Origin: a virus
Length of the DNA stretch: 20,185 nucleotides
Virus record (IMG/VR): IMGVR_UViG_3300036791_000548
Coordinates: 1-20,185 of that record
Strand: one strand, 5' to 3'
Numbering within the stretch: position 1 is the first letter of the stretch; each line of letters opens with the position of its first letter. Shown here piece by piece: positions 13,969-16,719 of this stretch. The position numbers were made by a program, and so were the translations under genes. The notes below the pieces were generated by a model. It did not search any database. It saw only the letters and a list, made by a program, of their open reading frames with translations, and was not told the DNA's origin.

Positions 13969-14814
13969 CTAACGAGCGTATAAGCGTCCGGGGGGAGCGT
14001 TGAGCCCGGCCCGTATCACCCGGTCGTCGCCGGTGCGCAGATAACGGTCGGTGGTCGCCACGTTCTGGTGGCCGAGGAAGCGTTGCACCGCCTTGATGTC
14101 GCGCGTCGCCTCATACAGCTCGGAGGCGGCCGTGTGACGCAGGGCGTGGGCCGAGTTGCCGTCATAGGCGGCCGCCTTAAGTCCGGCGGCTTCCATCCAG
14201 GCTCGCACCATGCGCGACAGGGCGGCCGGGGGGCGGCCGATCACCGGCCCCGATATGCGCTCACCGACCCAGGCGCCGAGCAGGGCGGCCACGTCGTCGC
14301 CGACGGGCATGCCCCGCTCATGGTCGGCCTTGCCTCTCACCTCTATCCAGCCCCGGCCCCGATCCCAGTCCTCGACGCCCAGGCGGGACACCTCCACGCA
14401 GCGCAGACCCTGGCGGCCCATCAAGGCGACGATGACCCGGGCCTCCAGGTCTGGGAGCACAAGGCGCAGGCGGCCCATCTGCGCGGCCGTGAGACCCCTG
14501 GGGTTGCGCCGGGGTTCCTTGACCCGCCCGGCCGACCGGCACGGGTCGCCGGAAAGCAGATCCCAGTCGGCCGCCCACCGGCAGAACACTTTCACCGTCG
14601 ACAGGTACGCCCTCCTCGACGCCGGCCGCTGCGATCCGATGGCGGCCTGCCAGCGGCGGATGTGGTCGCGGTCCAGGTCGGCGATTTCGGTCCCCTCGCA
14701 GAGCTCCACCAGCGCGCCCAGACGCCAGCGCAGCTGGCGGGCGGTCCGGTCGCCTATCTCGGCCCGAGCCCTCCGGTCGCTCACGTACGCCTCTACCGCT
14801 TCGCCTACCAGCAT
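13969..14814 (-). CDS. int: tyrosine recombinase integrase
   Basis: A 281-residue site-specific recombinase for prophage integration, with excision together with a directionality factor. The SD AGGAGG lies seven bases before the ATG at 14814. Residues about 1-90 are a SAM-like core-binding domain (VEAYVSDRRARAEIGDRTAR), and 105-275 the catalytic domain. All catalytic residues are present: R138 (QGLRCVEVSRL), K162 (RGKADHERGMPV), H223 and R226 (HALRHTAAS), H249 (LGHQN) and nucleophile Y258 (TTDRYLR). At 281 residues it lacks an N-terminal arm-binding domain, so it resembles the short, simple integrases. It follows the lysogeny genes after a 115-base gap. Confidence 0.93.
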   Translation of the reverse strand: MLVGEAVEAYVSDRRARAEIGDRTARQLRWRLGALVELCEGTEIADLDRDHIRRWQAAIGSQRPASRRAYLSTVKVFCRWAADWDLLSGDPCRSAGRVKEPRRNPRGLTAAQMGRLRLVLPDLEARVIVALMGRQGLRCVEVSRLGVEDWDRGRGWIEVRGKADHERGMPVGDDVAALLGAWVGERISGPVIGRPPAALSRMVRAWMEAAGLKAAAYDGNSAHALRHTAASELYEATRDIKAVQRFLGHQNVATTDRYLRTGDDRVIRAGLNAPPGRLYAR

Positions 14815-14882: not shown

Positions 14883-14908
14883 GCGCGAATACCGTGTGGT
14901 ATTTGCGC
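14883..14908. repeat. inverted repeat upstream of integrase
   Basis: GCGCGAATACC (14883-14893), spacer GTGT, GGTATTTGCGC (14898-14908): 11-bp arms with one mismatch and a perfect AATACC/GGTATT inner part. It lies in the 115-base gap between the 54-residue gene and integrase. There is no T-run on either side. It could be an Int or Xis binding site, an attP core, or an operator for integrase. I see no tRNA 3' end nearby to settle attP. Confidence 0.5.
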
Positions 14909-14929: not shown

Positions 14930-15094
14930 TTACCGGGTCGGTCCGAACACCTCCACCCGGACCCGCTCGATGGCATCCCAGAACAGCTCGATCCCCTGAC
15001 CGTCGGCGCGGTCGACCAGGTGTTCGCGCAACGGCTTGAAATGGTCGGCCAGGTCGCGCATGAGGGCGTGGGCGCTCAGGTCCGTGTCGCTCAC
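14930..15094 (-). CDS. 54-residue protein of the repressor operon, unknown function
   Basis: Minus strand, GTG at 15094 overlapping the HNH stop in GTGA, which selects this start over an in-frame TTG at 15127. The product ([20 protein letters not shown] then [20 protein letters not shown]) is acidic and probably all-helical, ending in a short strand ([10 protein letters not shown]). No family is recognised. Being the third gene after the repressor, it should be expressed in the lysogen. Confidence 0.55.
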
Positions 15095-15522
15095 GCCGCC
15101 ACCGCCAGAGACATTTTTCGATACCAAGCTCTGTACGCACTACGTCGGCAGGTACGGCATCCGCGCTGACCACCCGGCGAGACGTAGAGGTTTGCCCCAC
15201 TCAAGGCATGGCCCCGTATGCAATGGCTGCGCGTGGCGCGCTCACCTCGGCGCATGTTCTCTTGACGGGTAACGGGCTCCAAATGGGCTGGGTTGACGCA
15301 ATGGCGTACCCGGCAAAGGTGATCTATTTCCAACCCCTTCGCGATTGGCCCTACCAACAACTCCCATGCGACCCGGTGCGCTCCAACGCACGTCCGGCGC
15401 CCCGGAGCACTCCGAATGCTGAGGATTCCGTAACCGCTCGGGTTGCGGCTACCGATCCACAACCAGCACGACTCCGTGCGCTCGACCTTGCTCCAGAACC
15501 GGGTGGCTAGTGTGCTCCTCAT
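15091..15522 (-). CDS. HNH endonuclease inserted in the repressor operon
   Basis: A 143-residue HNH_3-type homing-like endonuclease, ATG 15522 overlapping the repressor stop by four bases (ATGA). It has the signature features: [14 protein letters not shown] (residues 19-32), [14 protein letters not shown] (45-58), and the active site [20 protein letters not shown] with D67, H68, N77 and H80. The C-terminus carries a likely zinc site from C101, H105, C122 and C125. Such nucleases cut DNA near their own insertion site and spread by repair. An intact nuclease expressed with an immunity repressor is unusual. Confidence 0.85.
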
Positions 15523-15818
15523 GCTGCCACCGCCCAGACGGGCGACGACGTCTCCCATTTGGTAGACGACCGGCGTGCCTTTCTCCCGGCTCGGGCCTTC
15601 GGCAGGGGTTCGCCGATGAGGTACTCGAGCGGTACGCCGCATCGGATGGCCCATAGGCGTAGATACCCGATGCGCGGTACCGCAGTATCTGCCTCGAATT
15701 TGGTGACGGTGGTCTGATGCACGCCCAACTCGGCGGCTAGATCCGCGGTCGATAGACCCGCCGTGCGTCGCGCTTTGCGCATCCGGTCGCCCAATGTCCA
15801 GGCCAGTACATCAGTCAT
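15519..15818 (-). CDS. immunity repressor, XRE-type HTH
   Basis: A 99-residue DNA-binding protein. The helix-turn-helix lies at about residues 8-65 ([20 protein letters not shown] then [19 protein letters not shown]). ATG 15818 is chosen since a promoter (-35 at 15849-15854, -10 at 15826-15831) would start transcription at or beside this ATG; an upstream in-frame codon at 15860 would lie inside the operators. The protein is too short for a LexA/CI-type self-cleavage domain. It is divergent from the Xis-like gene, with operator-like repeats in the region between, so it is the best candidate for the lysogeny repressor, acting on both promoters. Confidence 0.82.
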
Positions 15819-15825
15819 GCGACGA

Positions 15826-15854
15826 ATGCTACAGGATGAGGCATGACAATGCAA
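15826..15854 (-). promoter_or_regulatory. promoter for the repressor operon (leaderless)
   Basis: Read on the minus strand: -35 TTGCAT (15854-15849), 17-base spacer, -10 TAGCAT (15831-15826). Seven bases after the -10 box is the repressor ATG at 15818, so the transcript would begin at the start codon, as for CI from lambda PRM. Both hexamers are imperfect matches to the consensus. Two operator-like sites overlap the -35. Confidence 0.5.
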
Positions 15855-15862
15855 GATCATGC
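15841..15862. promoter_or_regulatory. two overlapping operator-like sites
   Basis: GCATGACAATGC (15841-15852) and GCAAGATCATGC (15851-15862) share the pattern GCAW-N4-ATGC and are offset by ten bases, one helical turn. They cover the -35 of the repressor promoter. A third, better copy lies at 15895-15906. They are likely repressor binding sites for autoregulation. Confidence 0.55.
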
Positions 15863-15889
15863 AACATGAGTAACCCGGTATGTAGGATC

Positions 15890-15918
15890 TTGACGCATGA
15901 TAATGCGTCGTGCATTAT
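15890..15918 (+). promoter_or_regulatory. early promoter (leaderless) covered by an operator
   Basis: -35 TTGACG (15890-15895), 17-base spacer, -10 CATTAT (15913-15918). Transcription would start about 15925-15926, where ATG 15926 begins the Xis-like gene, again leaderless. The 18-bp palindrome at 15892-15909 fills the -35 and spacer, so a bound repressor would block RNA polymerase. This is the probable start of the whole early transcript. Confidence 0.6.
15892..15909. promoter_or_regulatory. main operator, 18-bp palindrome
   Basis: GACGCAT-GATA-ATGCGTC with perfect 7-bp arms. Its inner 12 bases (GCATGATAATGC) differ by one base from the site at 15841-15852. Size and symmetry suit a dimeric HTH repressor. 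Confidence 0.65.
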
Positions 15919-15925
15919 GGCGCTG

Positions 15926-16105
15926 ATGCCACCTGACACCATGACCGTGCGCGAAGTCCTCGAGCTTTACGGGGTTACCCGCAGCACTCTGGACCGCTGG
16001 ATCGCGGCCGGATTGCTCCCCGTTATCCAACCCTTTCCGCGCGGCGAGCGCCGTTTCCGCCGCTCCGATGTCGAGGCCCTACTCACGCCCAAGGCTGCTT
16101 CGTGA
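15926..16105 (+). CDS. excisionase-like MerR/HTH_17 DNA-binding protein
   Basis: A 59-residue protein with an HTH_17-type winged helix: MTVREVLELYGVTRSTLDRW (residues 6-25), then IAAGLLPVIQPFPRGERRFR and RSDVEALL. Excisionases and phage early regulators of this type bend DNA at att sites or regulate promoters. ATG 15926 is chosen because it coincides with the predicted transcription start; ATG 15941 is an alternative and ATG 15917 would lie inside the -10 region. It is divergent from the repressor, in the place of cro or xis. Recombination directionality factor, Cro-like regulator, or both, cannot be separated from sequence. Confidence 0.72.
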   Translation: MPPDTMTVREVLELYGVTRSTLDRWIAAGLLPVIQPFPRGERRFRRSDVEALLTPKAAS

Positions 16106-16719
16106 GCACCGCCGTTGACATCGCCACCGGCGAGCTGGTCGCCCCGCTGGTAGGTCGCCAGCTCACCCCGGTGGAGGTGCGGGCGCGCGCCGCCTGGATT
16201 AGAGAGGTCACCAAAGCGGCGCTGCGAGAAGGCGTCGATTACGGCGTCATCCCCGGCACCGACCGCCCGGCGCTACTGAAGCCGGGCGCCGAGATGCTGC
16301 TCCTGGCCGCCGGGCTGGGGTTCACCATCACCCGTCTCGACGATGACGATTACGTGGCCCACGCCGGGGTCACCTACCGGTGCAGTGTCCGCCGCGGGGA
16401 CATCGTAATAGCCGAGTGTGACGGTTACGCCGGCTACGACGAATCCCGCTACTACCGATCCGCCGAAGACTCCGAGAAGGCCGAACGGGCGTTCGCCAAG
16501 AAGGACCGCCGCCCGCCGCGCGAGGACAAGTTCGTCGAGTACCGGGCGCCGTGGAACACCATCCTGAAAATGGCCCAGAAACGGGCTCTGGTCGGTGCCG
16601 CCCTCAACGCGGTGGCCGGCTCCGGCCTTTTCATCGGCGACGGCGACGACTCAGAACCGGCCCCGACGCCGCCACCCAAACCGGTCACTAACCGGCCATC
16701 GCCCGAGGATCCGTTCTAG
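16102..16719 (+). CDS. phage protein of the VDYGxIPGT/KPGAE family, probably recombination-associated
   Basis: A 205-residue protein with GTG 16102 overlapping the previous stop (GTGA). It belongs by eye to a widespread phage and mobile-element family marked by REGVDYGVIPGTDRPALLKP followed by GAEMLLLAAGL, and near the C-terminus WNTILKMAQKRALVGAALNA. Members commonly sit in early operons and have been suspected to act in single-strand annealing or DNA recombination; the biochemical role is not established to my knowledge. Other members I recall often have a Cys-rich insert before the NTILKM helix; here that part (AERAFAKKDRRPPREDKFVE) has no cysteine. The last 30 residues are a Pro-rich disordered tail. 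Confidence 0.6.
   Translation: MSTAVDIATGELVAPLVGRQLTPVEVRARAAWIREVTKAALREGVDYGVIPGTDRPALLKPGAEMLLLAAGLGFTITRLDDDDYVAHAGVTYRCSVRRGDIVIAECDGYAGYDESRYYRSAEDSEKAERAFAKKDRRPPREDKFVEYRAPWNTILKMAQKRALVGAALNAVAGSGLFIGDGDDSEPAPTPPPKPVTNRPSPEDPF

Follow-up and report, generated by a model that had tools for sequence, protein, structure and literature searches.

The window analysed here, meaning the whole stretch of DNA at its full length of 20,185 bp, is linear and corresponds to a single virus record. The nearest terminases to the one it encodes, at ~36–41% identity, belong to 14–18 kb actinophages (e.g. SallySpecial, Schiebs, RRH1, EricDab and GMA5). Two gene blocks diverge from a short gap. The leftward block comprises, in order, an Xre-type repressor, an HNH endonuclease, a small ORF and a tyrosine integrase, such that the repressor lies upstream of and co-directional with the integrase, with the HNH gene and the small ORF intervening. 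The rightward early block opens with a 59-aa excisionase-like gene of the HTH_17/MerR type, divergent from the repressor. The genes concerned are the following:

13969–14814, minus strand: tyrosine integrase, 281 aa, Shine-Dalgarno present (PF00589, E 1e-20)
15091–15522, minus strand: HNH endonuclease, between repressor and integrase (PF13392, E 4e-16; phrog_826, E 2e-51)
15519–15818, minus strand: immunity repressor, Xre-type (HTH_3), 99 aa (PF01381, E 9e-10; phrog_2328 transcriptional repressor, E 2e-15)
15926–16105, plus strand: Xis-like early protein, HTH_17/MerR type, 59 aa (PF12728, E 5e-11; phrog_66 excisionase and transcriptional regulator, E 7e-11)

The start of the HNH gene overlaps the repressor stop (ATGA). 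The order of repressor, integrase and divergent excise gene is also found in relatives. No close relatives of the repressor were found in the viral_contigs search, and the full repressor alignment was too varied to serve back-translated searches. A repressor scan of genome_contigs gave one weak Chloroflexi match, which was dropped; 400 genomes of that phylum yielded generic HTH proteins only.

Each of the two divergent genes is preceded by a sigma-70-like promoter:

15826–15831, minus strand: repressor promoter -10, TAGCAT, 7 nt from the ATG at 15818–15816
15849–15854, minus strand: repressor promoter -35, TTGCAT, spacer of 17 nt
15890–15895, plus strand: early promoter -35, TTGACG, spacer of 17 nt
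15913–15918, plus strand: early promoter -10, CATTAT, 7 nt from the ATG at 15926

The repressor promoter thus reads TTGCAT-17-TAGCAT-7-ATG and the early promoter TTGACG-17-CATTAT-7-ATG, in agreement with the original prediction of 17-base spacers on both sides; the interval given there stops one base short of the early ATG. For both switch genes, the -10 spacing puts the predicted +1 at the start codon. No Shine-Dalgarno sequence was found ahead of the repressor start, the Xis-like start or any candidate start examined, unlike the integrase and several structural genes, which have one. The claim that the -10 elements are positioned for leaderless transcripts in both directions is supported by the 7 nt to each ATG and by the missing Shine-Dalgarno sequences. 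Apparently, the repressor and Xis-like mRNAs are both leaderless, each beginning at its own start codon.

A comparison with relatives had been suggested as a check of this layout. Relatives were gathered by repressor, Xis and integrase searches, giving 22 loci with 41 switch genes, and for each gene the best-scoring sigma-70 promoter was set against the next in-frame ATG or GTG, so that start codons were not hand-picked. In 30 out of 41 switch genes, the -10 of the best promoter ended 5–8 nt before an in-frame start, nearly always 6–7 nt. Shuffled upstream sequences gave 5.8 ± 1.7 of 41 (maximum of 11 across 200 trials), and among other annotated genes of the same loci such placement was seen in 5/109. 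The difference between switch and control genes was significant (Fisher 2e-17, with relatedness among the phages ignored). On the early side of L002–L006, three of which belong to one type that includes CaptainKirk2 itself, the best promoter lay 6–8 nt ahead of a start in each viral contig, and the Emperor promoter is identical in layout to the early promoter of the window (TTGACG-17-CATTAT-7-ATG). Leaderless placement thus recurs in relatives far above chance, and the predicted double-leaderless layout seems to be conserved in this class and not an accident of the window.

Base composition as the sole cause of the leaderless spacing was ruled out by the shuffles, the control genes and L034. 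This 20-kb phage carries a copy of gene 16102–16719 at ~75% identity, but its integrase is a different one, its repressor is untagged and its early gene is leadered, with a Shine-Dalgarno sequence; judged from this comparison, the immunity module is one that was exchanged beside a conserved early gene.

An alternative, in which both promoters function but transcription starts a few bases up- or downstream and a short leader is used, is unlikely. The transcription starts are predicted ones, the early -10 CATTAT is imperfect, being without the first T of TATAAT, and the Xis-like gene has other in-frame ATGs at 15917 and 15941, the latter of which would give a 15-nt leader without a Shine-Dalgarno sequence; in addition, the early gene of L034, a related phage, is leadered. 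Against this, the spacing of 6–7 nt between -10 and start recurs in most relatives, and none of the candidate starts has a Shine-Dalgarno sequence, which favors leaderless transcription of both genes.

Annotated starts differ from those predicted from the -10 for some switch genes of GRU3, SallySpecial, McGonagall, Dmitri, Phishy, Typha, Nyceirae and Brujita (loci L009, L016, L017, L022, L023, L027, L028 and L030). The annotation of CaptainKirk2 gp43 (L013, 2956–3213) is probably wrong; the Xis-like gene that tblastn locates there runs on the other strand.

The repressor of the window ends in ...SSPVWAVAA, an ssrA-like C-terminus (-AVAA), and there are two candidate attP elements, one within its gene and one nearer the integrase:

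15555–15569, minus strand: attP core (predicted), TCGTCTACCAAATGG, within the repressor gene at its 3' end, single copy in the window
14884–14908, minus strand: inverted repeat GCGCAAATACC-ACAC-GGTATTCGCG, ahead of the integrase gene, in part common to L033

Repressors ending in AA were found at 17/22 loci, as compared with 12/109 control proteins. The nearest integrase relative, at 74% identity, is that of L033, where the repressor gene adjoins the integrase gene and has no detectable homology to the window repressor (tblastn E 0.32). At its 3' end, this L033 gene encodes RRSSTKWYRRPVAA, and its TCGTCTACCAAATGG matches the window exactly over 15 bp, while ~1e-5 shared 15-mers are expected by chance between two 110-bp ends. 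Because an identical 15-bp block is present in non-homologous repressors beside similar integrases, the attP core is predicted there; the natural reading of the two sequences is that the block is a core retained with the integrase while the repressor was swapped. When searched as a pattern in viral_contigs, the core matched only L033, its locus of origin. A search of the window for a tRNA or T-arm found none near the 3' end of the repressor gene, and in this most relatives' cores differ; in L002 (CaptainKirk2 type), the repressor runs into tRNA sequence at the core and the tag is lost, the one locus whose sequence supports a truncated repressor that would be stable and active after integration. 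From tag and core together, the window switch is probably of the integration-dependent immunity type, of the BPs/Obliviate/GRU3 kind. The layout of the switch as first interpreted holds, and its probable integration-dependent type, indicated by -AVAA and the probable attP core, had gone unrecognized.

The inverted repeat at 14884–14908 is a candidate for a rival attP or for an accessory Int/Xis site. Were it the attP, the switch would still be leaderless but not integration-dependent, and the -AVAA end would be fortuitous. The repeat is shaped like a tyrosine-recombinase core, 12 bp of it are exactly common to L033, and an AA ending also occurs in 11% of control proteins. However, the centre of the repeat (AATACC-N4-GGTATT) is ACAC in the window and GAAC in L033, whereas the block at the repressor end is identical although the repressors have no detectable homology, and relatives have attP within the repressor gene (PMC5559632). 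We therefore consider this alternative improbable and retain the core at 15555–15569.

The HNH protein also has an ssrA-like end, -LAVAA, and its last codons (TGG TAT CGA ... GTG GCG GCG TGA) are similar, in the same frame, to those with which the L033 repressor ends (WYRRPVAA). Insertion of the HNH gene into the repressor tail, beside the attP core, may have supplied a new tagged repressor end.

The gap between the divergent genes contains the following operator-like elements, to which no strand is assigned:

15841–15852: operator-like site 1, GCATGACAATGC, GCAW-N4-ATGC pattern
15851–15862: operator-like site 2, GCAAGATCATGC, 10 bp from site 1, 2 bp in common
15895–15906: operator-like site 3, GCATGATAATGC, GCAW-N4-ATGC pattern
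15892–15909: 18-bp palindrome GACGCATGATAATGCGTC, around site 3, over the early -35 and spacer
15900–15918: perfect inverted repeat ATAATGC-GTCGT-GCATTAT, whose right arm is the early -10

Three GCAW-N4-ATGC sites had been reported for the gap, and they are found at those places and nowhere else in the 20,185 bp. On both strands, 5 matches were counted versus 0.94 expected, and three sites were reached in 0/5000 local shuffles of the gap. The two repressor-side sites lie one helical turn (10 bp) apart, and both touch the repressor -35, as had been described; the third site, as the 18-bp palindrome, covers the final 4 bases of the early -35 together with most of its spacer. This palindrome has 7-bp arms, and its 4-bp centre is not symmetric (GACGCAT-GATA-ATGCGTC). 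GCAT/ATGC half-sites number 9 in 115 bp versus 0.56 expected, which is the densest cluster of the window. The two -10 regions and the two start codons are touched by half-sites as well. One motif thus occurs at both divergent promoters. Together with the gene types, these half-sites support the proposal of a divergent repressor/Xis-like immunity switch with shared operator-like sites. The density of half-sites is the strongest support for shared operators, at which binding is predicted. A pattern-free test for palindrome families on the gap alone was not significant, with 259/2000 shuffles reaching the observed level, and the case for operators is therefore built on where the half-sites lie and how dense they are. 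The paired-site test gave p = 0.02, and in the repeated-palindrome test on 16 relatives single p values were mixed, with a combined z of 4.2. Since sites 1 and 2 share 2 bp, simultaneous binding of two dimers is not assured. The repressor may have an additional contact in the inverted repeat at 15900–15918, which includes the early -10.

Xis-type proteins often bind direct repeats, and ATGCAA (TTGCAT on the opposite strand) is repeated with a spacing of one helical turn, at 15849 and 15859, but it is quite improbable that the Xis-like protein and not the repressor binds the repressor-side sites, as the same GCAT/ATGC half-sites build palindromes at both promoters and one dimeric repressor fits better.

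Herein, we propose that the locus is an integration-dependent switch of a temperate small-genome actinophage, leaderless in both directions and with shared operators, a reading that we consider likely. The gene types, the positions of promoters and sites, the tag, the shared core and the conservation of the layout are observed in the sequences, and from them we infer transcription starts, binding, degradation and integration as follows. In the virus form, both promoters would be able to fire before integration. The leftward promoter would give a leaderless mRNA covering the repressor, the HNH protein, the small ORF and the integrase, and the rightward promoter a leaderless mRNA of the Xis-like early protein. 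In this proposal the repressor is unstable in the virus form because its C-terminus is the ssrA-like tag -AVAA; it would be degraded before integration, and the Xis-like protein would build up. Integration at the core within the repressor gene would remove the tag and would also part the repressor promoter from the genes for the HNH protein and the integrase. The stabilized repressor would then shut the early promoter from the palindrome at 15892–15909 and damp its own promoter from the sites at 15841–15862.

A broader reading, which we find rather doubtful, is that double-leaderless transcription has been selected for and defines actinophage integration-dependent switches as a whole class, linking lysogeny to translational state. 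In that reading, the balance of repressor and early protein would be set by the capacity for leaderless initiation, since neither decision arm has a Shine-Dalgarno sequence. No class-wide statement of double-leaderless integration-dependent actinophage switches was found in the open-licence literature, and it may be partly known. A testable general claim follows, namely that leaders are almost always absent from the transcripts of both decision genes where an actinophage switch has its attP in the repressor gene; if true, the annotated starts of several such repressors and excisionases would shift to the ATG 6–7 nt past the -10.

Among known systems, the cluster CW Gordonia phages (GRU3, GMA5, McGonagall and Jeanie; PMC5559632) resemble the window in the size class of their genomes and in gene order, and they too have a repressor of this family with a C-terminal AA tag, leaderless placement and a probable attP in the repressor gene. 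Their repressors are only ~26–36% identical to that of the window, their attP is a tRNA-Lys 3' end whereas the window core has no T-arm, and the HNH gene and small ORF between repressor and integrase set the window apart from them, although GMA5 likewise has an extra ORF at this position (PMC5559632). BPs (gp33, PMC4557955) shares with the window the layout of divergent promoters (Prep and PR) and the ssrA-like tag; its attP lies in the repressor gene and its early operator between the PR -35 and -10, as is predicted for the window. The second BPs operator overlaps the Prep transcription start, whereas its window counterpart overlaps the -35, and the BPs operator sequence, CGACATATGTCG, is unlike the window sites. 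The arrangement of attP in a tagged repressor has also been described for Obliviate (PMC4929511) and for further Gordonia phages (PMC5559632).

Leaderless transcription of switch genes also has precedents, and the control by leaderless initiation that the original prediction presented as special is less so. In lambda, cI transcribed from PRM is a leaderless repressor mRNA in lysogeny (PMC4965119), as predicted for the window repressor; lambda differs in repressor class and control, and the cI side alone is described as leaderless there. In PY54 (PMC4488713), the cI and cro mRNAs are both leaderless, a layout like that of the window, established there by RACE and predicted here from sequence. 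PY54 is unlike the window in being a lambdoid linear-plasmid prophage of Enterobacterales with other proteins and operators, and without the integration-dependent immunity that we propose for the window. Leaderless mRNAs in both directions are likewise predicted for the divergent promoter pair PL1/PR2 of cluster O mycobacteriophages (PMC4351075), a pair that the paper does not present as an immunity switch of repressor and Xis, and ~14% of mycobacterial genes are leaderless (PMC7148126). Neither the leaderless cI nor the leaderless pair of cI and cro is a new element, both being already established. In conclusion, the window switch by itself adds one more neat case to a design already known, and the most useful content of the comparison is the conserved double-leaderless pattern, together with the probable attP and the tag.
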